A stretch of 51,726 bases of DNA, from assembly GCA_018064525.1 (NCBI GenBank), contig JAGHVB010000021.1:1-51726 (forward strand), read 5' to 3'. The notes under the pieces were generated by a model that saw nothing but the letters and a program-made list of their open reading frames with translations, made no database searches and was not told the DNA's origin. How positions within the stretch are numbered: the first letter of the stretch is position 1; every line of letters starts with the position of its first letter. The position numbers were made by a program, and so were the translations under genes. Source of the DNA: Candidatus Treponema merdequi (GTDB taxonomy: Bacteria > Spirochaetota > Spirochaetia > Treponematales > Treponemataceae). Positions 613 through 51,574 of this stretch are shown here, piece by piece.

Positions 613-616
613 AAAA

Positions 617-1000: not shown

Positions 1001-1034
1001 TAATATAAAAACTCCTATGAAAAATGTTATTTTA

Positions 1035-1064
1035 TTTACAAAAGTCCTATGACTATTGTATAAA
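1035..1064 (+). promoter_or_regulatory. Promoter of the DUF4143 ATPase gene, leaderless geometry
   Basis: A -35 box TTTACA (1035-1040), an 18-base spacer and a -10 box TATAAA (1059-1064) lie directly ahead of the ATG at 1072, with seven bases between the -10 box and the start codon. No Shine-Dalgarno precedes that ATG. A start at 1072 on a leaderless mRNA fits better than the upstream in-frame ATG at 1024, which lies ahead of the -35 box. Confidence 0.45.
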
Positions 1065-1071
1065 ATTTCTC

Positions 1072-2385: not shown

Positions 2386-2429
2386 TCACAGGGGAAATAA
2401 ATAGTTCTATAAAAAGGTAAGAAAAATTA

Positions 2430-2495
2430 ATGACCAAAATAACCGAAACCAATACATATGGAGAATACCTTGATATTCCCCGGATTCAATATTAA
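2430..2495 (+). CDS. Possible 21-residue small ORF
   Basis: A short frame starting MTKITETNTYGEYL lies after an AAAAAGG-like ribosome binding site (about 2411-2417). It ends ten bases before the next gene's preferred start. Its composition is protein-like, but no family is recognised. It could be a leader peptide, a gene remnant or chance. Confidence 0.2.
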   Translation: MTKITETNTYGEYLDIPRIQY

Positions 2496-2498
2496 CAT
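2470..2498 (+). promoter_or_regulatory. Promoter of the small exported protein, leaderless geometry
   Basis: TTGATA (2470-2475), a 17-base spacer and TAACAT (2493-2498) are followed after seven bases by the ATG at 2506. No ribosome binding site is visible before that ATG. Confidence 0.35.
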
Positions 2499-2505
2499 AT
2501 CAATT

Positions 2506-2994
2506 ATGAAAAAATTTTTAACTTTAATTTTATTTATTCTATTCACATCATCAATTTTTGCAGAAGGCTCAAAATCGTTTGTCGTTGCTCGAAGCGCAGA
2601 CGGAGTAACTGTTAATGATGAAGCAATTTTAAAAACATCAGATGACTTAAAAGATCCGTTTACCGTTCTTGTAAAATTTTTCAAAAATTATTTGGAAAAT
2701 AATGAAAAGTGGAAAGATTATGTTTATGATAATCCTGCATCTCCTTCGAAAAAAGATTTTCTGATAAGTGCAATGCTTGAAGCATATGAAGATTTGTACG
2801 GTTCGGTCGATAGCATTACGATTACGATTAACGAAGGTGATTACAAAGATTCTCGTTACGGAAATGGAACAATTTATTATTCCATCAGTCTGGAACTTTC
2901 ATTTGAAGGCGAAACAGAATCAGGAACAGATGAAGTTACAATGGTCAGAGATGATGAAACTGGCTTCTGGTATGTTACCGAAATACCGCAATAA
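2506..2994 (+). CDS. Small exported protein of unknown function
   Basis: This 162-residue protein has a clear signal peptide (MKKFLTLILFILFTSSIFAE, cleavage after FA), which is why the start is placed at 2506 and not at the upstream ATG 2458. The mature part has alternating beta-like stretches (SITITINEGDY, IYYSISLELSFEGE) and no cysteine. It may be a small periplasmic lipocalin-like or NTF2-like protein, but I do not recognise the family. It stands alone between the ATPase and the acyl-CoA synthetase. Confidence 0.75.
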   Translation: MKKFLTLILFILFTSSIFAEGSKSFVVARSADGVTVNDEAILKTSDDLKDPFTVLVKFFKNYLENNEKWKDYVYDNPASPSKKDFLISAMLEAYEDLYGSVDSITITINEGDYKDSRYGNGTIYYSISLELSFEGETESGTDEVTMVRDDETGFWYVTEIPQ

Positions 2995-3045
2995 AAAATA
3001 ATTTTTTCTTGCAACCTTTCCGCCATTTTTCTGTCTAATATTATG

Positions 3046-3073
3046 TTGACAAAAACAAATAATATGTCATACT
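3046..3073 (+). promoter_or_regulatory. Sigma70-like promoter of the acyl-CoA synthetase gene
   Basis: A consensus -35 box TTGACA (3046-3051), a 16-base spacer and CATACT (3068-3073) are followed by a GGAAAGAG ribosome binding site and the ATG at 3093. Confidence 0.6.
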
Positions 3074-3092
3074 GAAAAAGGACGGAAAGAGA

Positions 3093-21000: not shown

Positions 21001-24000
21001 TCGTTGAGATTACAAGTTCTGAAGCAGAGTTTTCTGTTCCGAAAATTATTTTTCCATTGCCGGTAATTGTAATTTCATTTGTTGAACTGACAGCGGCTGC
21101 TGATTCAATTGAAAGAGTTTCAGGGTTTTGAATTGTAAGGCGCTCTACAGTTACTGGTTTTTCAAAATTAATTGTTCCAGAAACTGTTCCGGTTGTGATA
21201 TTAAGTTCGCTTTGAGAAACGCCTTTGCTTACGGTATTTCCAAATAAAACAGGTGAACCGTTTGTAATTATTTTTGTATCTGTCGTAAGTTGTAAAGGAA
21301 CTTTTACAGTAAGAGGTGCTTTGACAGATGAAGTTGCGGCAAAAGTTGATTGTAAAGTTCCGCCGAGTGAAATTTTCTGTGCGGATGTTATTTCGACACC
21401 TTTTGTAAATTCTGTTGTGACAGGATGAGCTGCAGAGTCTGCAGCAGCAAATGTAATGGTGGCCTTTGTTGAGACAGGCGCAAAGTTTTCTACAGTGAGA
21501 TTTTCATTAAATGTGATTGAACCGTTTTCAGAACCTGCAGAAACATCGTCAGCGGTTAACGTTGTGATGTGTGCAGGAATTTCAAATGTCTTTGAAGTAT
21601 TCTGACCACGGATAAAAGTGTTTCCAAAATTTATTACAGAGGATGAAGCCGGCGCGTTTGATCTTGTAATTGTTCCGTTTTCGCTTGTAAATGAAGTTCC
21701 ATTAAGATTGTAAAATCCGAGATGAAGCTGGCAGTTATTATGTTTGTAAGAACCTGTTCCATCAACGGTAAAATTTCTTCTTACGACTACGGCAAGGTTG
21801 TTTGTAAATTCAATACCATTTGGAATTGTGAGATCGTAGAAAATTCCTGAAGCAGAAACCGGAGATGCTGCAAAGATTACATTTTTTTTGTTGAAGACCG
21901 CGAGATGCGTGATGTCAGATTGTGAAATTCCACCTGCACCGACAGAAAGTGTTCCGCCGAGTGAAGTAGAGTCCCATGTCATTGTGCCGTTGTTTATTAT
22001 TTTTGCAACGGACTGTGTGTTTGATGAGTTGTCGCCTGTCTGCGTAAAAATTGTTCCGGCGGATGTTGTAATTATGTTTGCATTAAATGCATTTGCTCCG
22101 ATTGCAAACTGTGAAGTTCCGTTTTGAGTAAGGTTGTTTACAGAGACTGCAGCTGTTGTGTTTGTATATGAACCTGCATTGTTAAGTGTAAAATCGCCTG
22201 CTGTAAGAGAACCTGTATGTAAAAGTTTTCCATTTGTAAGAGTGAGATTTTTATTTGCACCTGTCGCAGTAAGAGATGAATTAAAATTTATCTGAGCAGC
22301 AGCTGAAGTTTCGAGTGTAAGATTATCTGCAAAAGTTACAGCGTCTGCGTAGATCTGGTTTGAAGTTGTTGTGATTGCACTGCATCCGGAACCTGTTGCG
22401 GTTGTTCCGGAAATTGAAAGTGAAGAAAGTGAAACTGAATTATTAAAAATAACATTTGTTGCAGAAGTAGACTGACCGAATGTTATGTCTGCTGCAGTTG
22501 AATTATAGTTTGTAACAGTAGAATTGAAAGTCGCGTTCTTTACGTTGATGAAAATTGTTCCTGAGAGTTTTGCGGCTGCTGTAACTGTAAGATTGTTTGC
22601 ATAAGGTGTTTTACAGCTGAGAGAACCTTTAAGAATAAAATCTGCTGCTGTAAAAATAATGTCATCTGCAAGTGTTACAGTGCTGCTGTAAGTCTGATTT
22701 GCTGTTGTTGTAATTGAACCGCCTGCTGTCACAGCTCCTGTTACTTCAAGTGATGTTCCTGAAGTGATTGCCTGTGTATTTGAAAAAGTTCCATTGACTT
22801 TGATGTCGCCGGCAAGAGTTGCAGCTGTGTTGACAATAAGGTTGTTGTAATCGTTTCCTGTTGTGATGTCGTCAATTATTGCTGCAAGAGAGTTGAATTC
22901 TATTGTTCCCTTTGTGGCATCTGTAATCGGAAGCGGAGTTGCGCTGTTGTTTGTGATGCGGCCTGTGTTTGTATAGAAAATTTTTCCGGCGTTTGAAATC
23001 GGGTTTGCAGAAGAAGCGGCTGTAAGCTGTAAGTTTTTTGTACCGGACAAAGTTAATTCTGCAGCGGCACCTGTTGTAATTTTGTTGAGGATGAGTGAAC
23101 TTGCTGTTTCTGTGAACTGCGGCCAGAAATCTGTCTGCTGTGTTGTATTGATTTCTGCGTCGTCGTAAATTCCATTTCCACCGAAATAACCCGGATATTC
23201 GTAAGTTTTGTATACTGTCGAATCTGCAAAGATTTCCCAGTTGTCAGAAGTTTTCCAGTTTTTGTCAGAACCTTTTCCTGTCCAGCGGAATAAAGAAGCG
23301 ATTCCCCAATTGATGTTGTTTCCATGTGAAATTGAATTTGAAGTTAAAATTGTGTCAGCTGAATTTGAATTCTGTACAATTACATATTGAACGCTTTTAG
23401 ATGCGCCAGTTGCGTTGATGTTCCACTGGTCTGCAGCTGTGGCAGCTGTTGCAGAAGAACTTTGTAATGAAATTTTATTTGTGCTGTTTCCGGTCAGAGT
23501 TAATGCTGAAGTTACTGTCTGTGTTGTTCCTGCTGTAAAGATAATCTGTTTTCCAGGAACTTCGCAGACAAGAGTCCCGATTGTATTTGATGCATTGATT
23601 TCTGTTTGAAAAGCGGAATCAGTGATTGTAAGTTTTGTAATTGAAGTTGCACCTGAGTGACTTTCTGTTAAATTTTTGTGAAGTTTAAGTTCATTAAAAC
23701 TGTTTGTTCCGGAAACATTTCCGAAAACTTCAACGGTAGAAGAAGAAATAAAAGTTCCGGCTGTATGAGTCCAGTCATTCGTTATTGAAATATTATTAGT
23801 CTGAGAATTTAATGTACCTGAAGTGAGATAAAGATTTTTTGCAGTAAAAGAATTTGATAAAGTTGTTCCTGTTCCGGAAAAATATATGCTGGAAAGAGTC
23901 TGGTTGTTCGGGTTGAATGTATTTGCAGCTGTGTTTGTAAATTTTACATTGTCATCGTTCGCATTGAAAATTCCAAAACTGACATTTCCACCTGAGAAAA

Positions 24001-27000
24001 CAATGTCTGGATCAGGTGTGAGTGTGGAAGCATTTGTTTTTGCACCGTTGATTGTTCCGGAAGTTCCTGACAAACCGCCTTTAAATTCTACAGCAGTTCC
24101 TGAAGCGAGTGACGGAACATTGATTGTTCCGCTGTTTGTAACAAGTCCCGTATAGATTTGAATATTGGAAGTATTAATTGTTCCGGAATTTGCTGTAGTT
24201 CCGTTTACAGTAAGAGTTGAAATTTTCTGAGTTGTTCCATTGAATGAAACATTATTCAAAGTAAGTGCTGTTGCATCTGTCGGATTTACAGAAAGACCTG
24301 TTACATTCGAATTGAAAACAGTTGCTGCGGTACCGGCATTTAAATTGACAGACGCTGATGAAAAAGTTACGGCATCATTAAAAGACTGGTTTCCGGAAGA
24401 TGTAATGTCTCCGCCGATTGATGAAGTTCCTGTTACAGAAAGTGTATTTAATCCTGTAAGTTCTGCAGTGGTTGTCAAAGTTCCATATGCAGAAAGAGAA
24501 TGTGAAGCTCCAAGAAGCTCTGAATTAATTTTAATGTCTGCCGCTGCAGTTATATCGTCAGAAAGTGTCGCAGCTGAGGAAGTTGTAATAGCAAGGTTGT
24601 AGTAGTCAGTTGCACCGATGTCATCGACAGTTGTCGCAGCGGAAGTAAATTCTACAGTTCCTTTCGTGATGTCAGAAACAGGCAAAGGAGTCGTATCATT
24701 GTTTTTGATTCTTGCAGTTGATGAATAGACAACTGTTCCGGAGTTTGAAAGTCCGGAAGCTGTTTTTATTTTCAGACTGTATGCTGAGTTAAGAGTAAGT
24801 TTGCTTTCAGAAGCACTGAGTGTAAGTTTTGAAATTGTTACATCGGAAAGAACAGCTCCTGCCCCTGAGAAAACAGGTTTATTTGCTGTATTCGGAATTG
24901 TTACAGTATCATCTTCTGAGTTTTCACCCGGGTAGTTTACGGCATTGTATTGTGTTCCGCTGATATTGATTTTCCAGTTTTCATTATTGTTCCAGCTTGT
25001 GCTGTCTGTCGCAGAACTGCCTGTCCAGATGTAGTCTTCTGAAAAAATCCATCGTGTATTTCCACCGAGATTTTTTGAAAGGTGAGTATGTATTTCTCCT
25101 GTTCCGCCCGGATTTGAAGTTGAGTTTTTAACATGAGTATATTTTACATCGGAATTCAGAGCAGTGATGTTCCAGGTTGGAGAGCCTGTTGTCGTATCAA
25201 GAATGATTGGAGTAGAAGCTGCTGTTCCGTCAAGTTTGAGTGTTGTAATCGTCTGAGTTGTTGCAGGAGTAAAATAAATTTTTTTGTCTGGAACTTCACA
25301 GATGAACGTTCCGATTGTGTTTGAATTTTTTATATTTGAAACAGTTCCGCTGTTTCCGGCAATTGTAAGTATATTTATCTGCAAAACTGACGGATGACTC
25401 GTTTCCAGATCACCATACAGCTTAAGTTTATAAAATGCGTTTGAATTTGTTCCTGTAACGTTTTTCTTTACTTCAACTTCTGATGAAGATGAAAAAGTTC
25501 CGCCGTTGCAGATCCAGTTGTTTGAAACTGTGATATTGTTTGAGCCGGATTCGAGAGTGCCGGATGTAAGTGTAATGTCAGTTACGGACAGGGCAGATGT
25601 TAAAGTTGTTGTTCCGTTTCCTGCAAATTCAATTTTTGGAATTTCAGTTCCCGGAGCTGTAAAGAAACATGCTGTATCAGGAGCAAATTTTAAATTGTCA
25701 TCATTGTCTGTGAAAGATGAAAGTGTAACATTTCCGCCTGAAAAAACGATGTCAGGATTTTCTGAAGAAGCTCCGTTCAGAGTTACACCGCTGAATCCGC
25801 CTTTAAATTCTACAGCTGTTCCTGATGCGATTTCTGGTACATAGATTGTGCCTGTTCCAGAAACGGCTCCGTTGTAAGTCTGGACGTCTGTAGTAATTAT
25901 GTCTCCGCTTAAAACAGAAGTTCCTGAAACAGAAATTTTTTCTGCTTTAATATTGTGAGCTTCTGTCAGATTTCCGCCAATGACTAAATTTTTAAGTGGA
26001 ATTGAATTTCCAATCTGTCCTTCAAAGGCAGCATTTGTACCGCTTGAAAATGTAAGTGATTTTGGAGAACCTGCGCTCGAATTGTGAGTGTTCAGATTTC
26101 CTGTAAAAGTGACGGTACCGCCACCGGTTGAGGTAAGCGTAAGGTCATTGTTCAGTTCGTAGTTTCCGGAATAAGTCTGATTTCCGGTTGTTGTAATTGA
26201 ATTTGTGCCGCTTAAAAATGAAGTTCCGGAAGTGAGATTTACTGTTGCTGCAGAAATATCTCCGCGAAGCCACGCATCTCCGGTAATTGTAAGGTCGCCT
26301 GTAATTGTTATCGGATGAACAGCACCTCCGGACGGTTCGTAATGGCCGTTGATTGTGAGATTTTTTAATGCTGATGTCTGTCCGATTGAGCCATTAAGAA
26401 AAAGTCCCTGCGGAGTAGTGACTGTTAAGGAACTTGTAGAATTATCTCCATCGATATTTCCGTTGACTGTAATTCTTCCTGTTGAAGAAATTGAAAGACT
26501 GCCGGTTGATGTAAGGTTTCCGATTGATGAATTTGCACTGAAAGAAACTGTTCCACCGGCAGCGAGACTTGTAATTGAAATTGTACTGTCTGCAGAAAAT
26601 TCTGCACCTGATTCTATTACGAGACTTGAAATTGAAGATGGAGTGTTTGATGAAGGATAATTTGCACAGCTGTCAGGAATTGTAATCGGATTGTCTGTTC
26701 CTGCCGGAGGAACTATTCCGTTCTGCCAGTTTGCAGTATTGTTCCAGTCATTGTCTGAGCTTCCGTTCCAGACATATTCCGTTGTGGAGTTTCGGGTTAC
26801 AGTCGGACTGATTGTTAAATTTGGGTCAGAAGTTCCATCCGGAAGATTTATTATTCCTGTACTGTCTCCGGAAATAGTGAGGCTTCCGGCACTTCCAGAA
26901 GCTGCAGGTTTAAAAGTTCCATTTACAGAAACAGTTGCCCCGCCTGTAATCTGAAGAGTATGGTCTTTACTGTCTGTATAATCAAAATCGTTTCTGACAG

Positions 27001-27442
27001 TAAGTCTGCCTTTTGTTCCTGCACTTGAATCTGTGATGATTACATTTGACGAGAGGTTATTGTTATTTAAATTGAGATTGTTGCAGGAAAGACTGTGTCC
27101 ATTTAAATCTATTGTTATAGTCTGGCTGCCGCTTGTTACGCTTGTTCCCTGATAGTTGAAAATTATATTTCCGACTTCTACATCGGAATTGAGTTTTATT
27201 GTTACAGGATTGTCTCCGCCAAAATAAACATTGTCACTTGTTTCGTCCGGATAATCACCGGCTGCCGGCCATCCTAAAAGTAAATAGTAATACCAGTTGC
27301 TTGTGCCTTCCCATTCATCAGTTGCAGCATCTGTCTGCCTCCACTGATAGTCGGTTGCCCACAGACTTCCAAATACTGTGCACAGGATCATTGCGAGGAT
27401 AAGTATCTTTTTTGAGAATCTGGTATTAAAAAATTCCATCAC
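18041..27442 (-). CDS. Giant exported repeat protein with FlgD-Ig/sorting-tail-like C-terminus
   Basis: This single gene encodes 3133 residues. It starts with a signal peptide (KKILILAMILCTVFGSLWA). Much of the protein is Thr/Ser/Asn/Gly-rich, built of short beta strands with repeated phrases such as SGTAVEFKGG and NPDIVFSGGNV, as in right-handed beta-helix surface proteins. A W-x-G...W...NW module occurs about four times (near residues 31, 222, 801 and 1381). From about 3040 the sequence resembles a FlgD-type Ig domain plus terminal GIYFIRVV...KVMIVK, as in secretion-sorting tails. Start candidates are GTG 27442 and ATG 27439. It is probably a surface adhesin or fibre; the function is not established. 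Confidence 0.85.
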   Translation of the reverse strand: MMEFFNTRFSKKILILAMILCTVFGSLWATDYQWRQTDAATDEWEGTSNWYYYLLLGWPAAGDYPDETSDNVYFGGDNPVTIKLNSDVEVGNIIFNYQGTSVTSGSQTITIDLNGHSLSCNNLNLNNNNLSSNVIITDSSAGTKGRLTVRNDFDYTDSKDHTLQITGGATVSVNGTFKPAASGSAGSLTISGDSTGIINLPDGTSDPNLTISPTVTRNSTTEYVWNGSSDNDWNNTANWQNGIVPPAGTDNPITIPDSCANYPSSNTPSSISSLVIESGAEFSADSTISITSLAAGGTVSFSANSSIGNLTSTGSLSISSTGRITVNGNIDGDNSTSSLTVTTPQGLFLNGSIGQTSALKNLTINGHYEPSGGAVHPITITGDLTITGDAWLRGDISAATVNLTSGTSFLSGTNSITTTGNQTYSGNYELNNDLTLTSTGGGTVTFTGNLNTHNSSAGSPKSLTFSSGTNAAFEGQIGNSIPLKNLVIGGNLTEAHNIKAEKISVSGTSVLSGDIITTDVQTYNGAVSGTGTIYVPEIASGTAVEFKGGFSGVTLNGASSENPDIVFSGGNVTLSSFTDNDDNLKFAPDTACFFTAPGTEIPKIEFAGNGTTTLTSALSVTDITLTSGTLESGSNNITVSNNWICNGGTFSSSSEVEVKKNVTGTNSNAFYKLKLYGDLETSHPSVLQINILTIAGNSGTVSNIKNSNTIGTFICEVPDKKIYFTPATTQTITTLKLDGTAASTPIILDTTTGSPTWNITALNSDVKYTHVKNSTSNPGGTGEIHTHLSKNLGGNTRWIFSEDYIWTGSSATDSTSWNNNENWKINISGTQYNAVNYPGENSEDDTVTIPNTANKPVFSGAGAVLSDVTISKLTLSASESKLTLNSAYSLKIKTASGLSNSGTVVYSSTARIKNNDTTPLPVSDITKGTVEFTSAATTVDDIGATDYYNLAITTSSAATLSDDITAAADIKINSELLGASHSLSAYGTLTTTAELTGLNTLSVTGTSSIGGDITSSGNQSFNDAVTFSSASVNLNAGTAATVFNSNVTGLSVNPTDATALTLNNVSFNGTTQKISTLTVNGTTANSGTINTSNIQIYTGLVTNSGTINVPSLASGTAVEFKGGLSGTSGTINGAKTNASTLTPDPDIVFSGGNVSFGIFNANDDNVKFTNTAANTFNPNNQTLSSIYFSGTGTTLSNSFTAKNLYLTSGTLNSQTNNISITNDWTHTAGTFISSSTVEVFGNVSGTNSFNELKLHKNLTESHSGATSITKLTITDSAFQTEINASNTIGTLVCEVPGKQIIFTAGTTQTVTSALTLTGNSTNKISLQSSSATAATAADQWNINATGASKSVQYVIVQNSNSADTILTSNSISHGNNINWGIASLFRWTGKGSDKNWKTSDNWEIFADSTVYKTYEYPGYFGGNGIYDDAEINTTQQTDFWPQFTETASSLILNKITTGAAAELTLSGTKNLQLTAASSANPISNAGKIFYTNTGRITNNSATPLPITDATKGTIEFNSLAAIIDDITTGNDYNNLIVNTAATLAGDIKVNGTFSNTQAITSGTSLEVTGAVTAGGSITTTANQTYSSTVTLADDIIFTAADFILKGSLSCKTPYANNLTVTAAAKLSGTIFINVKNATFNSTVTNYNSTAADITFGQSTSATNVIFNNSVSLSSLSISGTTATGSGCSAITTTSNQIYADAVTFADNLTLETSAAAQINFNSSLTATGANKNLTLTNGKLLHTGSLTAGDFTLNNAGSYTNTTAAVSVNNLTQNGTSQFAIGANAFNANIITTSAGTIFTQTGDNSSNTQSVAKIINNGTMTWDSTSLGGTLSVGAGGISQSDITHLAVFNKKNVIFAASPVSASGIFYDLTIPNGIEFTNNLAVVVRRNFTVDGTGSYKHNNCQLHLGFYNLNGTSFTSENGTITRSNAPASSSVINFGNTFIRGQNTSKTFEIPAHITTLTADDVSAGSENGSITFNENLTVENFAPVSTKATITFAAADSAAHPVTTEFTKGVEITSAQKISLGGTLQSTFAATSSVKAPLTVKVPLQLTTDTKIITNGSPVLFGNTVSKGVSQSELNITTGTVSGTINFEKPVTVERLTIQNPETLSIESAAAVSSTNEITITGNGKIIFGTENSASELVISTINKNILFDGDRTNAKITLNSPVRISTGTADGDITLNQSIDSKAAGAQNLTLISGKGRIFINNSIGKTIPLGTVNITGITQISASLKTDSHPINFTDTVYISGDAYSDTEISSGTEDITIGNASNASDLFINAVDASGAKNILLTAGTIDVKNNFALFNGNITLNANLTASKDIVLLNGNVSAMYDDTGDSSKSGVTNLFDYHNPLRTAANNLCEPSLVFKTEDPLNPGSLIPTSSKYPESMPDGTLINHTTAYSSSLSGFASKTITANQNFYDNGVNLEASSQWTLKIKKNDSAENSFAECYHASIKNILVECTTTGDFAWLSASEDCTDNGFNSTDVNNSLTYNADGSYTRQLTGIAFKHPVILTSSASISASEGRPVNPEVPNFSGTYTVRDNVIRVEFVRSDNSSRLCLIENSNNEIRKAVRSLKMIKYNGDSATSIFFEDVFIDAECTDTTDGKGDIAVIYLKAPDSSRWNYSATGTEYGTDTDSNGIHQTRYSDIEITRALTTVFYSLTDDHKNRIGSFKGTPAGKSSSEGFRFTATATRCAIQQMHIAFSIADFTSNKVYLYFDHPLADDITWNTITKDTIHFYSDIDTQDTSYQVISVEPHGDHANGVILNLNKNLDYTRAKLQYGIKIEYGASFLFVNKIHSPDNKVVISGESHCISDAIMNCVEVEYAYDNRNDAYIDSTDGIAPADSIAIRDFAGKTKHNKVFADKDITLVTKDISQNLDSFGNHVFTYHAVADITPTLHSDGENFSAYSGIKTRAWFPVTALGSTPLEGFAPVLNSSKNIQTSHDVYIERNFNAASLTTTFLFHNFSEQTPCLNWQSGSDVRFFFEVQDQNGTIEINHLYDGTTISTGTRMTPLYTFRTSNPADYTSIDLWSFIISEPQRQRGGVSIYSNVVNAANKEFCTLEVNMPKEGNLRVIIMTADGNIVKYLENGRQSPGLHYYYWNGTNNSGSTVARGIYFIRVVGPEIEETRKVMIVK

Positions 27443-40830: not shown

Positions 40831-40873
40831 GTTTTACCTTTAATCAGTCAGAATATATTTAATATTTTTGCAG

Positions 40874-40910
40874 ATGCGGAATGGTTTTTAAGCTGTTCCG
40901 CATTTTTTTT
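40874..40910 (+). terminator. Rho-independent terminator after ricT
   Basis: ATGCGGAA (40874-40881) pairs with TTCCGCAT (40896-40903), followed by eight T (40903-40910). Confidence 0.9.
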
Positions 40911-41167: not shown

Positions 41168-44100
41168 ATGAAAAAGTTTTTTCTGTCATTTTTCGTATTA
41201 ATCTCTGTTTTTATTTTTGTTGCATGTGAAGTCGGAATGGGTTCTGCATTAGACCTTGAGGCTCCAGAGATTACGATTACTTCGCCTCTTGATGGAGATA
41301 ACGTTCATAAAACCATAACTCTGGAAGGAACCTGCAGAGATAATCTTCGTGTTACAGAAATCGATGTTTCAGAACGCGCTCAGGATGGAACTATGATATG
41401 CCGCGGTAAGGGTGTTATTCATGGGGAAAGATGGTCCTGTGATATTTCACTTGAAGAAGGTGACAGATTTATTATTTGTACTGTAAAGGATGCTGCCGGA
41501 AACTCTTCTCCAAGATCTAAAGCCGTTTTAACTTTAATTGTTGATGAAACTTCTCCAACTGATAAAGGCTGGTACATTATCAGGGGAAAAAATATTTCAG
41601 TTAACTTTATGTCACGAAGTAAACTTGAAAGTGTTGATTGCGATCTTGCGACAAATAAATACATTCCACAGAATGAAGGTTTTTCAATTAACGGTCACTT
41701 TGAAGATGCAATAAGCGTTGCCAGTGCTACAGTCAATCTTTATGAAGATGATTTTTCAACTCCGTTTATTTCAAAAACTGTTACAGCAGCTTCCATTACA
41801 AGCGGTTCCATTTATGCTCCGCAATGGGATTTTACACATGATGAACTTGTTTCAAAAAAGAGTTCTCTCAACAGTGGAAAACATTATATTAAGGTTGCTT
41901 ACGAAGTAGCTGATGAAGCTGGTAATAAATCAAGAAGTGATGTCGGTTATCTTCTCTGGTATCCGGAAAGTGATATTCCTGGTATTCAGCAGAGTGCAAC
42001 AGAAAATGAAAAACTTCTTGTTAATGCCGGCAGTGCTATTCCAGTTCATTTCTTTGATGATGATGAACTTAAAGAAGTTGCGTATGCATTTATTTCTGAA
42101 GAAGAAAAAATAAATAACAATCTTTCATACGAAAATATGAACACATATCTCCTTGATGGAACTCATAATGTGACAATTGCCCAGGGAGAATCCGAATATC
42201 CGTTACAGATTTCTACAACAAAAGATGATGGAAAAGCTTTCTCGTCTGGTATTTATTTTATTCTTGCCTATGTAAAAGATATTAATGAAAATGAAAAACG
42301 CCGTTTTATCGAAGTGAACCTGATGGACGCTTCAAAGCCGATGCTTATCATTACATCGCCTCTTGAAAATGAGCGTCCTTCTGTAGTTGCAGGAGCAGGT
42401 GGTGTTGCTTCTGTATTTAAGTTTATTGGTAACAGTTATGATACAAGCGGAAGTAAATGTGTAAAGATTGCATATATTCCGGAATATGGAACTTATAAAA
42501 CTGCAGCTGATAAACAGAAACGTGCAAAAGATATTTTTGAGAATGAATCTCTGGCAGCAAACGGAGAAATTGTTAAAACATATACTTTCCCTTCTGATAA
42601 ACCGCGACCGGATCCGGAAAATAATATGATTATGGAACCGTTCGAATTCTCTTTTGATCTGCTTACAGACTTCCCGACAGAAATGAATAAATCAAAGTTC
42701 TTTTTAATAAGACTTGAAGATATTGATAAAAATATTGTAGACAAGCAGATGATTGTCAGTGCTGATGATGATAAGCCTGAAATTGAAATCGCAAGTCCAA
42801 AGAATGATATGATGGTTGTTGATTATTCCAGCCAGAGTCTGCTGTTAAAATTCAAGGCAGTAAAAGCATCGGGACTTGGCATTAAGCCGGAATCTTATTG
42901 CGTAAAAAGAATTCCTTCTGGCAATAATCAGAACGATAAAGACTTTGAATGTACTTTTGCAAATGGAAAACTTTCCTGGGATGATCCTGTAAAAAAAGAA
43001 TATGTTACGGTTTCAATTGACAAATCTACGTTAACAAAATGGGCGTGCGGATTTGAAGGTTATTCTGTAGATCCTCAGCCGATATTTGAATTCATTGCAG
43101 CTGATATTCTCGGTAATGAAGGAATGAATCGCAGAACTGTTGTATTAAGTCCGCTTCCTGTTCTTGAATCAGTTTCGATTGATCAGGCTGGCAATAAGAC
43201 ATATCCGTTGGGAACTGTAATTTCGTTCCAGGCAAAATTTTCTGATACTGTAAAAGTAACAGGTACTCCAAAATTAAAGCTTTCCGGTCTTTCAAAAGAT
43301 GGAAGCAGTTATACAACTTATGCAGATTATGTAAGGGAAGAAAATAATTCAGATACAATCAAGTTTACATATACAGTTGAGAGCGGAGTAACTGCTTCAG
43401 AAATTTCCTGCAGCGGAGACAGCATTGTTCTTGAACCTGGAACGAAAATTGTTACAGGAACACAGGGTACAGGTGATGCAATAATTAAATTTGTTGATGG
43501 AAACAACTTCTGGGATTCTGCAGATCCTGATGTAAGACGAAAAGTTGGTCTTGATGGAATTCTTCCTGTAATAAACAGTATTAAATTAAACAGCATATCA
43601 GGCGTTAGTCCAAAGACAGATGGAAAATATTATGCAAGTGCAAACCGTGATGTTTTAATTGATGTTGAATTTTCAGAACCTGTCGTAATCAGTGGTAATG
43701 TATATTTAAAGACTACTGCTGCCGGTGTTGTAAACTTTAAACAGTATTCGATGAGTACTGATAAAAAAACTATTACTTATTCTTATAAAGTTGCATTAAA
43801 AGATCAGGATATAGGAAATCTTATCGAGACATTTAACAATGTTGAACTGACTTGTGATACAACAGGATGTTTTGAACTTGATTCAACAAAATCAATCAAG
43901 GACGAAGCCGGAAATAACCTGAACTTAAGTAATACAGTCAGCAATAATTTAAAGACTGTTTTTGATACGATAAAACCAAATAAACCGATTGTTCCTGTCA
44001 TTGAAATTGAAAATGAAACCAGTCATCAGTTTGTAAATAAAGGAACTTGCAATAAACCTCCGCGATATGAAGTTAATATCAATTCTGATACAGATATTGA

Positions 44101-46456
44101 AAAACTTGAAATATCAATTGATAACGGACAGTCTTGGATTGATTATACAAAAAAAACAGCTCCTTCTGCATCTGATTCATGGGTTTGGGGAACAGATTCT
44201 TATGATTCTGGAAAACTCAAGATTAAAGATGGTGGAACTTATCATGTAATTGCACGTGCTACAGATAAAGCAGGAAATGTTTCTGATAACACAGATGCGA
44301 TTGATGTTCAGTATAATGACCAGTTCCCGGAAATTCTTGATATAAAAATTGCAAATGAAAATGGAAGTTACAGCAAGGGTAAAACATTAAAATTCCAGAT
44401 TTTCCTTGCAGATACAGTTAAAGAATTTACAGAAGACAGTGCAAGCATAACATTTGAAACAATTAATTCTGTAACAGGATCTGTTGGTAAACGAACAGTT
44501 AAAGTTCGTGCTCCGGTTTTAAAAGATGGAAAATATGTTGATCCTGAAGATGATACAAAGGAATTTAATTTTGCAATTCTTGAATTTGATCATACGATTT
44601 CTGATGAAAAATCGGGTACACAGAAGATAGACGTGTATAAAGGTATCCGTATTTCAGCTGTAGATTTAAACGGATTACAGGATAAATATGATAACAAGCA
44701 GACAGCAGTAACTACTGCAAAAATCAACAGTCTGACAGCAGTTCCATCAGATGCAAGTAAGGAAACCGGCTGTTACAGACCAAGTATTAACGCAGATGGA
44801 TTTGTTCCTGAGATTTCTGCAAAAATACCTGTTGATAATGGAATTTGTACTGGAAAAGATTCTGAAGGTAATTTTATGATTACTTTGACTTTTGATGAAG
44901 AAGTTTCAAAAGAGTCTGGTAATATTATCCTTCAGCGTAAAGGTGCCTGGGGTATTCCTGCTGTGATGACAGTTACCGATTTTAACAGAGTTTATAACAG
45001 TTCTTCTTTAACAAGTGCTGATAAAGAAAAACTGATGGTAACCCAAAACGGAAATGGAACCGGAAATGAAGAACTTGATTCAAGAACTGGTATCGCAATT
45101 GGTCCGTATAAAAAAATTACCCATGGTTTAAAATTTGCAGACATTCATGGTTATGAAAAAGAAATTTCGTCTAAGAATGTTTATCTGCCGGATACAGATA
45201 CAAAATATGTTCTTGATTTTAACCTTGGTTTATTTAGCGGAGAAACAAAACTTGATCCTCATGGAAAAAATGTAACAGCAAAAGTTTCTGATATCAGGGC
45301 TGTGTTTGAAAAAGCAGGATATCATAGACATACTTTACAGATGAATTCATCTTATATCAAACAGGATTCTTCGAACAAGAAAGTTTGGTATGTCTCATTC
45401 CCGAAGAATGAATTTTACAATGCAGATTATGACTCTAACGGAGACAGTATTCCTGATGGAATTGAATGGGAACTGATAATTGAACCTGGAACATTCCGTG
45501 ACTCAGTAGGTAATCTGTATGGAGGAATAAGTTCTGGAGAATATACTTTGTGGAGTGATAAAGCTGCAGCACCTGTTGTGCGTGTAGACAGATATTCTCA
45601 TGGCTGGGGTGCAATTGAACCAAAAAGCTCAGCAACAGTATATAGTGATGCAACTAAAACTAACTTCCAGGAAATTACAGAAAATACAATACGAGGAGGG
45701 ACTGTTGCCGGTAATTCTGGTGGAAAACTTGAACCAACTGGATATGCCCGCGTAAGAATTGATTCTCAGACACCAGGGGCTGTAATTGACTATACTGTAA
45801 TTAATAAAGGTGCTTTTGATGCAACTACAGGTAAAGTTGCAACAGGCAGCTCAGCAGCAAATATCAGCTGGATGAAATATACACTATCTTCTGGAATAAA
45901 TGTAAAAGACGGTAATACAGGTACAAGTACTTCATCTTCTGCAGGTAATTATAAAACAGGTTTGTCAAATCAGAATTGTTCGCTTTCTTACATTGAAGAT
46001 CTTGATTCTCTTCCTTCATCAATAACTCAGACAAACAGCAGCAACGGCATAATTTTTGTTGTAGGAGACGGTGACTATAAGACAGCCCGAAAGGACTATG
46101 TAGTTGCAGTTGCAAGAAAAACTCCTTTGACTACTTCTGGAATGGGTTATGAAGGGGTATTTAAGACTGTAATCTATTCAGAAAACTTCAATAATTCTAA
46201 CTCACAGCTTTGTATTGAGGGCGGAACATTTATGGGTGGAGAACCAAGTGTTTCAGGATTCCCTGTAAGAGACGTTGCATTGCCAAGTTTTTCTAAAAAC
46301 TGTTACAAATCAGGTGACAAGCAGTTTATCTGGAATTCATATGAAATTGTAAGTACAAAATGGTCAATTCTGTTATACGGTGGAACGAACAGTCAAAACT
46401 ATCCATATTCAAGTTATGGACAGGCAACCTATGTAAATGATTACTTCCATTATTAA
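41168..46456 (+). CDS. Giant Ig-like repeat lipoprotein, paralogue 1
   Basis: This 1762-residue protein has a lipoprotein signal peptide with lipobox FVAC (cysteine about residue 20), directly followed by EVGMGSALDLEAPEITITSP. It then runs through many bacterial Ig-like (Big/fibronectin-like) modules with the recurring turns DAAGN, DEAGN and DKAGN, including LEISIDNGQSWIDYTKK. The C-terminal 150 residues are distinct, rich in Ser, Asn, Tyr and Trp. It is anchored in the outer or inner membrane and probably displayed on the surface as an adhesin-like stalk; no enzyme motif was seen. It is followed after 15 bases by a paralogue. Confidence 0.85.
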   Translation: MKKFFLSFFVLISVFIFVACEVGMGSALDLEAPEITITSPLDGDNVHKTITLEGTCRDNLRVTEIDVSERAQDGTMICRGKGVIHGERWSCDISLEEGDRFIICTVKDAAGNSSPRSKAVLTLIVDETSPTDKGWYIIRGKNISVNFMSRSKLESVDCDLATNKYIPQNEGFSINGHFEDAISVASATVNLYEDDFSTPFISKTVTAASITSGSIYAPQWDFTHDELVSKKSSLNSGKHYIKVAYEVADEAGNKSRSDVGYLLWYPESDIPGIQQSATENEKLLVNAGSAIPVHFFDDDELKEVAYAFISEEEKINNNLSYENMNTYLLDGTHNVTIAQGESEYPLQISTTKDDGKAFSSGIYFILAYVKDINENEKRRFIEVNLMDASKPMLIITSPLENERPSVVAGAGGVASVFKFIGNSYDTSGSKCVKIAYIPEYGTYKTAADKQKRAKDIFENESLAANGEIVKTYTFPSDKPRPDPENNMIMEPFEFSFDLLTDFPTEMNKSKFFLIRLEDIDKNIVDKQMIVSADDDKPEIEIASPKNDMMVVDYSSQSLLLKFKAVKASGLGIKPESYCVKRIPSGNNQNDKDFECTFANGKLSWDDPVKKEYVTVSIDKSTLTKWACGFEGYSVDPQPIFEFIAADILGNEGMNRRTVVLSPLPVLESVSIDQAGNKTYPLGTVISFQAKFSDTVKVTGTPKLKLSGLSKDGSSYTTYADYVREENNSDTIKFTYTVESGVTASEISCSGDSIVLEPGTKIVTGTQGTGDAIIKFVDGNNFWDSADPDVRRKVGLDGILPVINSIKLNSISGVSPKTDGKYYASANRDVLIDVEFSEPVVISGNVYLKTTAAGVVNFKQYSMSTDKKTITYSYKVALKDQDIGNLIETFNNVELTCDTTGCFELDSTKSIKDEAGNNLNLSNTVSNNLKTVFDTIKPNKPIVPVIEIENETSHQFVNKGTCNKPPRYEVNINSDTDIEKLEISIDNGQSWIDYTKKTAPSASDSWVWGTDSYDSGKLKIKDGGTYHVIARATDKAGNVSDNTDAIDVQYNDQFPEILDIKIANENGSYSKGKTLKFQIFLADTVKEFTEDSASITFETINSVTGSVGKRTVKVRAPVLKDGKYVDPEDDTKEFNFAILEFDHTISDEKSGTQKIDVYKGIRISAVDLNGLQDKYDNKQTAVTTAKINSLTAVPSDASKETGCYRPSINADGFVPEISAKIPVDNGICTGKDSEGNFMITLTFDEEVSKESGNIILQRKGAWGIPAVMTVTDFNRVYNSSSLTSADKEKLMVTQNGNGTGNEELDSRTGIAIGPYKKITHGLKFADIHGYEKEISSKNVYLPDTDTKYVLDFNLGLFSGETKLDPHGKNVTAKVSDIRAVFEKAGYHRHTLQMNSSYIKQDSSNKKVWYVSFPKNEFYNADYDSNGDSIPDGIEWELIIEPGTFRDSVGNLYGGISSGEYTLWSDKAAAPVVRVDRYSHGWGAIEPKSSATVYSDATKTNFQEITENTIRGGTVAGNSGGKLEPTGYARVRIDSQTPGAVIDYTVINKGAFDATTGKVATGSSAANISWMKYTLSSGINVKDGNTGTSTSSSAGNYKTGLSNQNCSLSYIEDLDSLPSSITQTNSSNGIIFVVGDGDYKTARKDYVVAVARKTPLTTSGMGYEGVFKTVIYSENFNNSNSQLCIEGGTFMGGEPSVSGFPVRDVALPSFSKNCYKSGDKQFIWNSYEIVSTKWSILLYGGTNSQNYPYSSYGQATYVNDYFHY

Positions 46457-46471
46457 TAAGGAGAATGCGAT

Positions 46472-49400
46472 ATGAAATTAATTAAAGATTTATTAAAAAC
46501 AATTTTAGTAGTATTTACTTCTCTTTTGTTAGTAACCTCGTGCGAAGTAGGATTGGGAGAAGCTGTAGATCTTGAGGCACCGTCAATAAATATTGAAACT
46601 CCGGCGCCTACTGCAATAGTTCAAAAAGACTTGCAGATAAAGGGAACTGTTTCTGATAATGTCGGTGTAACAGAAATGACTGTTTCACTTGCGGCAGAAA
46701 ATTTTTCAACAATTGAATACAGATGGAGCAATGGCTGGACAGTATTTGAAAACGGTATCTGGAAAGAATATAAAGGTGCAACCTGTGAAGGAAAACCGAC
46801 AAATTTATTTTGGACAATTAATGTAAATATTCCGGAAAATTTTGAAAAGAAAGATTTTATTCTGACAACAATTGCAAAAGATGAATTTGGAAATCAGAGC
46901 AAAAATTCAAAAGATGAACGCTTGATTACAGTTGATGGTGTAGAACCTAGTGCAGAAGTAACAATTGAAAAAGCGTTGTTTAAAAAATATTCAGATGCTG
47001 AAAGTGTTTATTCATCATGTACATTACGTGATAATTCAATTCTCGATAAACTTGTAAATGGAAATTTTGCTGTTAAAATAAATCAGAAAGAAAATGCAAG
47101 ACTTGGACAATTTAAAATAATTTTTGATACAGTTACAGATTCTTCAATTCCATCTGTTGCAGAACAGGGTGATCTGTTTGCAATGCCGAATGTTTATCAG
47201 GCATTAATTCCAAGTTCTACGAGAAGTTTTGAAATTAATGTAGAAAGAAGTCAGCTTAAAAATGAAATTCAAAACGGTAAACATCTTCTTCGCGTTGTGA
47301 CAGAAAGTTTTGATGAAGCCGGTAATATCGAAAGAAAGGTTCAGGGATTTTTTATTTATTATCATGAAGCAGATGCTCCGTGGACACAGATGAGTCTTGG
47401 CGACAATGTTTTTGATGACAGCAAGAATCAGAAAGAGGTTTATCCAAGCTGTATGCTTCAGGGAAATGCTTATGATGATGACGGATTAAAATCTGTTGAT
47501 ATTGAATTGTGGATTTACAAAAACTTTGTATGGATGCGTGATGAAAGCCGTACACAGCATATTGATCTTGAGGCAGATGATTATCCAAAAAACAACGTCT
47601 GGACAATTTATGCAATCTCTGATTCAAATCACTTTAAAGTTGTTTCTAAATGTACAGATATAAATGGTGCTGTAAGTATTCCTCTTGAAAAATTCTTTAG
47701 AATCTCTGATGTCAATCCGCCACAGATGGAAATTACAGAACCTAAATCAGGTGATGTTGTTTTAGGAAATTCAAACGGCAAATTTACATTAAAGGGACAG
47801 GTAAAAGATGATGGTCCGGTTAAGTCTCTTAAGATGGTACGCATTGCAAACAAGAATAAGGGAAGTGATAACTTCTTGAAATATTTCTCCGGTTCATATC
47901 AGGGCTGGACATCTGAACTTGACGGAAACAAAGTATTCGAAATTAATCTTATTGGTTCCGGAGTGCCGGAAGGCGGCTATTGTACTTATGAAATAAATCA
48001 GGAATTTAATCTTTTTGGAACCGAAAGTAATTCTTTTGGAATCAATGGTACAGGTACAAATGTAAAAGAAATTGAGGCTGGAGAAGGAAAAAAAGATGTT
48101 ATCGTAGAAACAGTTTATTCTACAGAAAATTTAAAGAATCAGACTCTGCTTTTCAGAGTAGAAGATACAAGTGGTTCTGTAGCTATTGAGACATTCTCAT
48201 TCCAGGGAGATGTAGAACCTCCTGTTTTGACAATTGATAATATTAATGTTGTTTCTCAGGAAAGTGGCTATGATAAGTCTAAGGCAGAATCTTATCCTCT
48301 TAATTCCGACAACGCAATAAAAACTTATAAGCGTAATGAAAGCAATATAATAACAGATAAAATATATTTTACCGGAACATGGAGTGATAATGCTGCTGCA
48401 CATTGGGGTGATAATTCAAAAATCGGTGAAATCTATTTATATAACAGTTACGGATTAATGGCCCCTGTAGTTAAAAATAGTAACGGTACATGGGAATCTT
48501 ATTTAATAACTCCTGAAGATACAACAACTTCAAGTGTACAGGCACTGATTACTGACTGGGGTGGAAATACTACAAAAGCAAGCGGAAGTTATTTTGTAAG
48601 CAGCAGTAAACCTGTGTTGCTCAGAGTAAACTCTTCTAAACAGGATGGAACTTATAAAGATGGTGACGAGATTATGATCGTCATGGAATATAATAAAAAA
48701 GTTACATTCGAAGGCGGATCTTCTGCACCTGAATTGATTTTGAATAATAATGGAAAAGCAACTTATTCATCTGGAAATGGTGAATCAAAGCATTACTATT
48801 ATTATAAAGTTGGTTCTGGAAGTGAAACTTCTTTGTCTGGAAAATTAAAGGTAAGCAGTTTAAATACAAATGGAAATACATGGAAAGACAATAACAAAGA
48901 AGAAGTTAAAGTTTTAACAATAAGTGATGGTATAAATCTTGATAAAATCAGATCAATTTATATTGATAACAATTCTCCTCGTATAGTAAAGATATCACCG
49001 GTTACCGGAGGATATTTTAACAAAGACAAGGAAATCTGGGTTCAGGCAGATTTTAATAAAGAGATTACTGTTAAAGATTTTTCAAAAACGAAACTTGTTT
49101 TGAATATTTCTGGTACGGGCAAGACAGAAACTTCTCTTGATGCTTTCTCTCAGTCAAGTTCTAAATCAGTTTTGTTTAAATATAAAATACTGGAAAGTGA
49201 TAATACTCTTGATACTGAAAATAAGATGTGTAAATTAAGATACACTCAGTTTATTCCTGGAGAAAATAATATTGTTGATATTGCAGGCAATGCAGTAACA
49301 GATGTGACACCGACAGATACAACTGATTATTTTAATTCTAATGCAGTTTATGTTGATACAAAAAAACCTCTTAAACCTTCAGTAACTGGCGTTGAAGATT

Positions 49401-51574
49401 TTGATTCAAAACATAAAATTTATTATACCTCAGTAAACAGCATACGTTTCGATAACTTTGAACCGGCTTCTGATGCCACAAGATACTACAGTCTTGATGG
49501 AGGAAATTCATGGATCAATTATTTATCAAATCCGGTCATCAGTCAGAATGGAACATATAAAGTCTGTGCAAAACAGATTGATAAGGCTGGAAACGAATCT
49601 GACATGTCTGATGTAGTAACTGTAAAAATTGATGCAGGAAATCTTTATACATCAATTTCCGCAGAGCAGCCTGACGGAACTTATAAAAACGGAAATGATA
49701 ATATTGTTGTAGTGTTATCGTTCAGAAATAAGATTTCTGCACAGAATGTAAAATTAAAATTAAACATTACAGATAAAGATAGAAATGCAAAAACTGTTTA
49801 TGCAAATTTAATATCACAGACTGATGATAAAAAATTAAGATTCAGTTATGAAATATCAGAAAGTGATTTCTGTTTTGATGCATTGAATGTAATGGAAATT
49901 GATTATGGTTCAAACGGATGGATTAAAGATGAATATGGAAATGTTGTTGCCGGAAAAGATGCTTCTACAGGAAGCTCTGTAACTGGAAATGTCGAGTATT
50001 CAAGTAATCCGGGTCTTGTAAAAAGCCGTACAATTAAAATTGTAAATGGTAGGCCGGTTGTAGAATCTATTACACTTACAAAACCATCTGGTGCTGTAAA
50101 TGTAAAACAAAGACAGCTCAGGATTAAATTCAATTCAGAAATTACAAAACAAAGCGGCAATTCACTTTACATTACACTTAAACAGGAAACTAGTTTTGAA
50201 GCGCCTGCAATGCTGTCAAAAACTCAGTGGGAACAGTGGCCTTCTGATATAACAAAATTTTATAAAGAAACAACAAATGGCTGGAATGCAAATACAGGTT
50301 CTCCGGATTTAGCTTCAAAGTATGTTTTGAAATATGAATTTGATACAGACAATACAGAGCTGGTTGGAAATATTAAAGCACTTGATGATGCAGATGCTGT
50401 ATCTATAACTGCAGACAGAGTTGTCGTTGATATGGGTTCAAATTACATTTATGTAGATGAAAATGACAGAACAGTTCTTGTTGTAGAGTTAAAAGATGAT
50501 TTTATTTTACCTGTACAAGGTGCTGATTATACTGTAACAATTCCTGCAGGCGTTGTAGAAAATTACATTAAAAACAAAAATGAAGAAGTGTTTGAAAATG
50601 CTAGTACAAAATATATAAGATCAAATCCGGGAGTTGAAACACCGGTAATTCGTATCAATAAAGTCAGTGAAACAATCAGTGGTACTTCAGTTACACAGAA
50701 TCCTACAACTACATTTAAGATTGACTGTCAGACTCCATTGGGTACAGATGATAAAATTTATTATAAGATTACTACTCAGGAAGATACTTATATTAAATTG
50801 ATTAATAACGGTGGTAATGATGTTACTATGGCATGGGAAGGAAGTACATCAAAAAAAATTACTGCTGCACCTAAGTTTACAAACTCAATACCTTCTAAGT
50901 CTGACATGCAGAATACAAGTCTTTCATCATTGGCAAAAAAAGCAACAGGCTCTTTAGGATCTGCTATTAATGGTTCTGATATGACAAAGAATAAGGGATA
51001 TATGGCTTTAATTTCTGCAACAGCTAAGAAAGGCTCTTCTTATTCTGATGAAATTGGAATGGAATTTGCCATGAGAACTATCATATTCTTAAAAGAAATG
51101 GAACAGTCATCTTGGGGAGGAGCTGCTACAGGTAAGGTTAAAAACCGATGTACACCTCCTGATGGTGATGAATGGGAGAATTGTAAGGCTAACAGATGGC
51201 TTCGCGGTGGAGATAATATTTCTGGTGGTGTCAGTACTGCAGACTTTCCGTTAACATGGGATGGTGATGACTGGAATGAAAATCCTAGAACCGTAAGGGC
51301 AATGACACCTTACAATAATACAGATGGTTTGTGGTATTGGATCAGCTGGAATGTTTCAACTACAGCTTATGTTCACTTTGTTGCTGGCAATATTCCAAGT
51401 GATGCAGATACAAATGGACCAGATCACTGGTGGTGGAGTTGTTGTGGTTGGGTTGGAAAGAAAGAACAGACTCCGGTTTATGCTGGTGAATGTACTGTAT
51501 TCCAGACTGATGCAAGTACAAATAATAACGGTTATTCTTTCTTAAATGAAGGAAAGCATAAAGTAAAAAGATAA
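46472..51574 (+). CDS. Giant Ig-like repeat lipoprotein, paralogue 2
   Basis: This 1700-residue protein has a lipobox VTSC (cysteine about residue 24) followed by EVGLGEAVDLEAPSINIETP, nearly the same mature N-terminus as the upstream protein. Ig-like modules follow in similar order, including RYYSLDGGNSWINYL and DKAGNESD. The C-terminal portion carries a Trp-rich, Cys-containing segment (NRWLRGGDN, DHWWWSCCGWVG) absent from the first paralogue and suggestive of ligand binding. The ribosome binding site AAGGAG lies within the 15-base gap, so the two are co-transcribed. The pair most likely arose by tandem duplication. Confidence 0.85.
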   Translation: MKLIKDLLKTILVVFTSLLLVTSCEVGLGEAVDLEAPSINIETPAPTAIVQKDLQIKGTVSDNVGVTEMTVSLAAENFSTIEYRWSNGWTVFENGIWKEYKGATCEGKPTNLFWTINVNIPENFEKKDFILTTIAKDEFGNQSKNSKDERLITVDGVEPSAEVTIEKALFKKYSDAESVYSSCTLRDNSILDKLVNGNFAVKINQKENARLGQFKIIFDTVTDSSIPSVAEQGDLFAMPNVYQALIPSSTRSFEINVERSQLKNEIQNGKHLLRVVTESFDEAGNIERKVQGFFIYYHEADAPWTQMSLGDNVFDDSKNQKEVYPSCMLQGNAYDDDGLKSVDIELWIYKNFVWMRDESRTQHIDLEADDYPKNNVWTIYAISDSNHFKVVSKCTDINGAVSIPLEKFFRISDVNPPQMEITEPKSGDVVLGNSNGKFTLKGQVKDDGPVKSLKMVRIANKNKGSDNFLKYFSGSYQGWTSELDGNKVFEINLIGSGVPEGGYCTYEINQEFNLFGTESNSFGINGTGTNVKEIEAGEGKKDVIVETVYSTENLKNQTLLFRVEDTSGSVAIETFSFQGDVEPPVLTIDNINVVSQESGYDKSKAESYPLNSDNAIKTYKRNESNIITDKIYFTGTWSDNAAAHWGDNSKIGEIYLYNSYGLMAPVVKNSNGTWESYLITPEDTTTSSVQALITDWGGNTTKASGSYFVSSSKPVLLRVNSSKQDGTYKDGDEIMIVMEYNKKVTFEGGSSAPELILNNNGKATYSSGNGESKHYYYYKVGSGSETSLSGKLKVSSLNTNGNTWKDNNKEEVKVLTISDGINLDKIRSIYIDNNSPRIVKISPVTGGYFNKDKEIWVQADFNKEITVKDFSKTKLVLNISGTGKTETSLDAFSQSSSKSVLFKYKILESDNTLDTENKMCKLRYTQFIPGENNIVDIAGNAVTDVTPTDTTDYFNSNAVYVDTKKPLKPSVTGVEDFDSKHKIYYTSVNSIRFDNFEPASDATRYYSLDGGNSWINYLSNPVISQNGTYKVCAKQIDKAGNESDMSDVVTVKIDAGNLYTSISAEQPDGTYKNGNDNIVVVLSFRNKISAQNVKLKLNITDKDRNAKTVYANLISQTDDKKLRFSYEISESDFCFDALNVMEIDYGSNGWIKDEYGNVVAGKDASTGSSVTGNVEYSSNPGLVKSRTIKIVNGRPVVESITLTKPSGAVNVKQRQLRIKFNSEITKQSGNSLYITLKQETSFEAPAMLSKTQWEQWPSDITKFYKETTNGWNANTGSPDLASKYVLKYEFDTDNTELVGNIKALDDADAVSITADRVVVDMGSNYIYVDENDRTVLVVELKDDFILPVQGADYTVTIPAGVVENYIKNKNEEVFENASTKYIRSNPGVETPVIRINKVSETISGTSVTQNPTTTFKIDCQTPLGTDDKIYYKITTQEDTYIKLINNGGNDVTMAWEGSTSKKITAAPKFTNSIPSKSDMQNTSLSSLAKKATGSLGSAINGSDMTKNKGYMALISATAKKGSSYSDEIGMEFAMRTIIFLKEMEQSSWGGAATGKVKNRCTPPDGDEWENCKANRWLRGGDNISGGVSTADFPLTWDGDDWNENPRTVRAMTPYNNTDGLWYWISWNVSTTAYVHFVAGNIPSDADTNGPDHWWWSCCGWVGKKEQTPVYAGECTVFQTDASTNNNGYSFLNEGKHKVKR

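Follow-up and report, generated by a model that had tools for sequence, protein, structure and literature searches.

The window analysed here is a stretch of 51,726 nucleotides that makes up an entire contig (C7; JAGHVB010000021.1) of the Candidatus Treponema merdequi assembly GCA_018064525.1, which is 2.70 Mb in size and 99.8% complete. Near its end lie two large open reading frames (ORFs) in tandem on the forward strand: ORF1 (41168..46456, +) encodes a lipoprotein of 1762 amino acids (aa) with immunoglobulin (Ig)-like repeats, and ORF2 (46472..51574, +) one of 1700 aa; the contig ends 152 bases beyond ORF2. In each protein, a hydrophobic signal peptide and a lipobox-like cysteine can be recognised by eye. 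An earlier sequence-only reading had described the pair as tandem giant lipoproteins with almost identical mature N-termini, and its coordinates, sizes and cysteines are all borne out. Here we describe the short tag that starts at this cysteine, the C-terminal heads of the two proteins and the genes that accompany the family.

The tandem pair and its N-terminal tag

All Pfam matches above the cut-off in the pair are of Ig type, namely Big_7, Big_13, Glucodextran_B and DUF4625, and neither protein has a Pfam match to Big_2 at E-values up to 0.1. The first Ig-like domain of ORF1 (41264..41527, +) is matched by Glucodextran_B (residues 33-120) and Big_7 (33-68), and that of ORF2 (46559..46912, +) by DUF4625 (30-147) and Big_7 (37-77); a Big_13 domain lies further along ORF1 (44006..44293, +; residues 947-1042). 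Profiles built from the full-length ortholog groups (alignments A2 for ORF1 and A1 for ORF2) align end to end (1-1599 versus 1-1542, E = 4e-125), so the parallel order of modules proposed earlier is real. The two paralogs are 32% identical over ORF2 residues 13-340. We read the pair as the product of an ancient duplication in a family of giant Ig-repeat lipoproteins of the Spirochaetia.

The tag reads CEVGMGSALDLEAP in ORF1 (41225..41266, +, starting at Cys20) and CEVGLGEAVDLEAP in ORF2 (46541..46582, +, starting at Cys24). Its consensus is C-x(2-5)-G-[LM]-G-x2-V-D-x3-P, that is, 14-17 residues that begin at the lipobox-like cysteine and lead into the Ig-type stalk. Sought with a loose DNA pattern, C-x-[VI]-G-x-G has 11 matches in the source genome. 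Exactly three of them lie in a lipobox context, so the tag is not a chance occurrence: ORF1, ORF2 and, on contig C38, a third giant of some 5,160 aa.

To collect relatives, ORF2 was compared by tblastn with 59 genomes, its own included, and matched in 34. Of the 74 matches that began within the first 20 residues of ORF2, 66 were examined and eight were not. The pattern C-x(1-6)-G-[LM]-G-x2-[VILP]-D-x3-P is present in 66 of 66, where this search expression itself defines the tag, a signal peptide was no criterion, and the sequences were drawn by tblastn with ORF2. The gap between the cysteine and GLG is two residues in 52 sequences, three in one, four in 11 and five in two, after correction by hand for two matches that had begun at an upstream cysteine. 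In the column-conservation alignment, the C, G, L/M and G columns are forced by the search expression and only the later columns are informative.

A stricter DNA pattern yields 61 matches across 29 of the 59 genomes, against three for a reversed control. A scan of the phylum with the tag pattern finds matches in 37 of 296 genomes; since the reversed control gave 15 matches against the 64 listed, a lone match distant from Treponema was accepted only after translation. Among 61 distinct matches from both scans that were translated, 51 are preceded by a signal peptide and followed by an Ig-like start and 10 are chance frames (both judged by eye), and no tag was seen on a non-Ig lipoprotein. The tagged Ig-repeat lipoproteins occur in Treponema and in two more families within the class. 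Beyond the order, families f6 (G064, G107, G197) and f12 (G300) have tagged giants. The tagged open frames measure between about 1,250 and 6,080 aa; some stand alone, others are paired, and G001 and G009 have arrays of three or four.

The sequence-only reading had named, as what would refute it, a tag that is merely the edge of an ordinary Ig domain and lacks conservation particular to the family. Big_7 starts at residue 33 in ORF1 and 37 in ORF2, which is the last residue of the tag, 13 past the cysteine. The VD-x3-P half of the ORF2 tag overlaps the DUF4625 match (from residue 30), while C-x2-GLG lies outside all Pfam matches. An Ig-domain edge does not account for the C-to-GLG part of the tag: the GLG core stands upstream of every Pfam match, and all 66 examined relatives keep the motif. 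The tag marks a family of Ig-repeat lipoproteins. A role as a localisation signal is plausible.

C-terminal heads

The two C-termini had been thought to diverge, the proteins forming a stalk with a variable tip. Stalk and head is a fair description; divergence of the tips is not confirmed and their variability is not supported. The last ~330 aa of the two proteins are homologous (hhalign of A5 against A4, 99.5%, E = 1.5e-22). In ORF1 this head region occupies 45464..46453 (+), and its terminal ~130 aa are homologous to the terminal head domain of ORF2 (51179..51571, +; alignment A6), which carries the pattern RGGD..FPL.W...WYW.SW...NGP..W and includes the HWWWSCCGW noted in that reading, located near residue 1652. 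For the last 130 aa, hhalign gives 95.1% (E = 3.4e-8) with one odd row, L069, left out. Eight hhalign controls give 0.1-0.7%: the ORF1 end against the head of the larger giants, a reversed profile and four stalk segments (0.1-0.7%), and two comparisons of the ORF2 head with the giants' head (0.1%). A hidden Markov model (HMM) of the ORF2 head (C-terminal 330 aa) matches in 10 of the 59 genomes, every time at an ORF1-ORF2 pair, and it also matches the ORF1 heads in five genomes (E = 3e-24 to 2e-6).

Eleven giants have in common another C-terminal module, unlike the head of the pair, with a recurring HIAAYD-type motif (alignment A8) that looks propeller-like by eye; in Pfam, its 11 rows gave two single-row matches near 0.01, which were taken as chance. 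By these profile comparisons, the pair carries its own head type and the larger giants another.

In 20 ortholog comparisons, with gaps counted as mismatches, identity over the last 130 aa exceeds that over the whole protein 12 times (0.91 versus 0.60 for ORF1 of L058-L062, for instance), equals it once and falls below it seven times. The stalks and heads of ORF2 orthologs have diverged to 25-36% identity. A test for head exchange at fourfold-degenerate sites is mixed: the pairs L066-L067 (ORF1) and L060-L064 (both genes) gain identity as the 3' end nears, L058-L062 gains weakly, and the other five pairs show no clear rise. Separately, ORF1 of L067 (7967-12943) looks mosaic, with its stalk nearest to L058, its head nearest to L066 and fourfold-degenerate sites agreeing. 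Tip variation by a diversity-generating retroelement was considered and rejected, given the mostly conserved heads and the lack of any RVT_1 (reverse transcriptase) match in the source genome at its 99.8% completeness; three of 14 control genomes were positive.

Structures were predicted for the two tips, as the sequence-only reading had proposed. The ORF2 C-terminal model has a predicted local distance difference test (pLDDT) score of 69.9 and places an FN3-like sandwich before the terminal domain (50630..51085, +; model residues 17-168). Fold searches return FN3-type rows for this pre-head domain with Z about 8, the listed rows mainly covering model residues 15-168, and CHB_HEX_C_1 is matched in Pfam by two of 15 pre-head rows (best E = 0.0012); in the model, the domain has the fold of the CHB_HEX_C and FN3-type sandwiches. 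The AlphaFold model of the ORF1 head region, at pLDDT 41, is too poor for a fold search. The ORF2 terminal head has no credible relative in Pfam or among PDB sequences, where the search returned three antibody chains only (E = 0.16 or worse). The one listed fold row that lies mainly on it is the CBM20 structure 2z0b_F (Z 7.4, root-mean-square deviation 2.7, 97 residues, model 163-318), which is under the tool's meaningful level. Several other candidates were set aside: the top Foldseek rows for the ORF2 model were given no weight at TMq near 0.2; Vault_2, in two of 19 ORF2 head rows (best 0.0098), and three single-row Pfam matches were taken as chance; and a head of formylglycine-generating-enzyme (FGE) or C-type-lectin type, suggested by the ORF1 C-terminus, was dropped because none of 13 rows matched a Pfam family of this kind.

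Candidate partners and a possible sorting role

On contig C38, the ~5,160-aa giant directly follows an Ig-repeat protein (open frame 1,744 aa) whose C-terminus looks like an outer-membrane barrel, with no Pfam barrel match. At the corresponding C38 loci, L004 (2705-7930) and L005 (4096-5256), the barrel-type protein stands before the giant, and a membrane-anchored protein weakly like sugar-binding proteins (SBP-like) stands after it on the opposite strand. The last 330 aa of the barrel protein have matches in 44 of the 59 genomes, some over the Ig part only. Within the same genus (36 genomes), a match covering the barrel is present in 27 of 30 tag-positive and none of six tag-negative genomes (Fisher 4e-5), and p400, a membrane-anchored protein of the SBP-like kind, in 29 of 30 against one of six (Fisher 9e-5). 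Among the 23 genomes outside the genus, both barrel and tag occur in six, the barrel alone in nine, the tag alone in none and neither in eight. By coordinates, 12 genomes have a tagged gene no more than 0.6 kb downstream of the barrel gene's end, and G042 adds one. Likewise, p400 adjoins a tagged gene in G000, G001, G010, G177 and G299 and, by coordinates, in G008, G014, G019, G026, G029 and G034. Within the genus, the tagged family co-occurs with, and often adjoins, the barrel-ending Ig protein and p400.

The best PDB matches of p400 are sugar-binding proteins (weak, E = 0.03-0.05), and its sequence reads as that of a protein held in the membrane by an N-terminal anchor. In family f6, which belongs to another order, a tagged giant, a membrane protein of 320-350 aa and a barrel-type protein stand together at three of three loci, and the membrane protein weakly matches p400 (best E about 0.001). 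Two giants reached through the barrel gene rather than the tag, in genomes without an ORF2 match, are still tagged: one in G042 directly downstream of the barrel gene (CDVGLGSRVNTEQP) and one in G044 about 5.7 kb downstream (CDLFTVGLGSKVDVTAP). As a separate observation, in six same-genus genomes (L147:1530-4176 and L148-L152) the barrel gene lies away from a giant and is followed by two conserved genes of ~374-385 aa and 490-525 aa (with an HD domain in L147), in some cases then by an mnmE-like gene.

Among known systems, LigA and LigB of Leptospira are the nearest working model. They are elongated Ig-repeat lipoproteins of a spirochaete, their genes stand in tandem on some chromosomes, and host proteins are bound mostly by the C-terminal Ig domains (PMC7821625). 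By sequence reading, ORF1 and ORF2 resemble them in having an N-terminal lipoprotein signal with a lipid cysteine. Unlike the Lig proteins, they have Big_7-, Big_13- and DUF4625-type matches in place of tandem Big_2, N-terminal regions that are far from near-identical (the 32% given above), a different head and the GLGxxVD tag. The nearest motif model is the lipoprotein export signal (LES) of Bacteroidetes, a short N-terminal motif of surface lipoproteins, of the form K-(D/E)2 or Q-A-(D/E)2, which suffices to deliver a reporter to the surface (PMC5080379). The tag is likewise short and N-terminal; however, both LES forms are absent from the two tags of the window, and GLGxxVDxxxP has been seen only on one Ig-repeat family, with a putative sorting role. 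The tagged family is a member of neither system. One stretch in each ORF is weakly similar to the OmpL47-type domain NF047446 (26.6 and 31.3 bits, against a curated cut-off of 40).

The explanation that we rate highest, tentatively and at somewhat under an even chance, is that these proteins are surface Ig rods with a lipid-proximal sorting or assembly motif read by an envelope system. On this view, the lipoproteins would project outward as rods from an anchor in the outer membrane; a partner in the envelope system, most likely the barrel protein, would recognise the motif; and the head, conserved rather than variable, would bind one shared ligand, which in the herbivore gut may be a glycan of plants or mucus. 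A more specific version, in which a dedicated Spirochaetia system of the barrel-ending protein and the SBP-like protein reads GLGxxVDxxxP, exports the giants and assembles multi-Ig rods with interchangeable conserved heads, appears doubtful to us; if it holds, the tag would represent a new type of signal for lipoprotein sorting.

Several points weigh against a sorting motif with these partners and a conserved, glycan-binding head. The tblastn- and pattern-derived collections both depend partly on the tag itself, and since the first Ig domain is conserved too, the tag may persist through common descent. The Fisher tests ignore shared ancestry. Three tag-positive genomes of the same genus (G007, G031, G033) lack a match covering the barrel, and the nine other-family genomes with the barrel protein have no tagged protein in what was examined. 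The ORF1-ORF2 pair itself adjoins the barrel gene in G053 only, by eye. Of 20 barrel-gene neighbourhoods, only those of G042 and G044 newly gave a tagged giant (that of G038 was already known), and none appeared in the ORF lists, of at most six per locus, for the remaining 17. Glycan binding rests on the single sub-threshold CBM20 row (Z 7.4), and the head falls below whole-protein identity in seven of the 20 comparisons, for example 0.31 versus 0.43 in L065-L070.

The descent argument amounts to an alternative in which the tag is a linker inherited from a common ancestor, alike with the first Ig domain by descent and read by no partner. Tag and first domain do travel together, some Ig columns (G, D) equal the tag in invariance, and the translated matches held no tagged non-Ig lipoprotein. 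However, linkers next to the lipid in lipoproteins are usually free to vary, whereas here GLG, D and P are kept in all 66 sequences despite stalks and heads as diverged as those of the ORF2 orthologs, or a head of the other type, and the cysteine-to-GLG gap varies while the core stays constant; we regard an unread linker as somewhat unlikely. A location on the inner face, where the Ig rods and the barrel protein would jointly link the outer membrane to the cell wall, would suit the Ig-type modules common to the barrel protein and the lipoproteins, as well as p400, whose apparent anchor would place it in the periplasm, and lipoproteins of diderms often face inward. Such a scaffold is harder to reconcile with about 16 Ig-sized units in 1,700 aa (~100 aa each) and relatives of up to 6,080 aa, whose extended rods would by our estimate exceed a typical periplasm, with size and number that vary per genome, and with distinct conserved heads, so that we consider it quite unlikely. 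Finally, a hypervariable tip on a stalk, serving adhesion or antigenic variation, would account for the differing terminal residues of the tandem paralogs, for the seven comparisons with a less conserved head, and for L067, whose ORF1 combines stalk and head affinities as recombination would give. The paralog heads are nevertheless homologous, the other 13 comparisons show heads at or above whole-protein identity, and the genome is without an RVT_1 match; this makes a hypervariable tip highly improbable.

To our knowledge, the sorting of spirochaete lipoproteins to the surface is poorly understood. The combination of a short conserved motif on one giant family with co-occurring candidate partners makes the hypothesis of a sorting motif directly testable. 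The proteins concerned are predicted to be very large surface proteins of spirochaetes from the herbivore gut, and their head domain is undescribed in the family libraries searched. A literature search at the level of titles and abstract openings, covering few subscription journals, found no description of the motif or family.

Gene arrangement and other features of the window

Pairs of the window type occur in eight other relatives, one of them with a broken ORF1, and G007 has ORF2 alone at a contig end. Of 14 loci from named genomes, which partly overlap the other set, 12 have both genes with ORF1 before ORF2; these records comprise 13 Treponema and one Spirochaetales metagenome-assembled genome, from sources that include water buffalo and yak stomachs and horse faeces. 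The place of the pair varies: in G015 it sits between mnmE-like and glmS-like genes, which adjoin each other in G003. In G307, from another genus, a tagged 254-aa ORF is followed by one of 3,398 aa, and the locus adjoins PSP1-like, M23-like and TatD-like genes, as does that of the window (all gene names by sequence reading). In L069, an ORF2-like C-terminal ORF (40-4071) lies ahead of the ORF1-ORF2 pair, so that ORF2 may be present twice in this genome. Broken copies, due to assembly error or decay, are an ORF2 with an internal stop (G007:C168, L038) and an ORF1 split with undetermined bases (G002:C100, L046).

A terminator-like hairpin of 15 pairs with a T-run (40872..40905, +; a consensus match only) follows the gene preceding ORF1, and the pair is therefore probably its own transcription unit. 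The two genes are separated by 15 nt, with a GGAG ribosome-binding-like site, read by eye, 8 nt upstream of the ORF2 start (46460..46463, +); because of this short gap and the hairpin before ORF1, they are probably co-transcribed. The region holds 11 terminator-like hairpins against 4.9 expected, and promoter-like sites show no excess (40, against 42.7 in shuffles). Elsewhere in the window, on the reverse strand, lies another giant ORF (18041-27442, -; 3133 aa), whose sole Pfam match at E-values up to 1e-4, FlgD_ig, lies at the C-terminus (residues 3065-3119).
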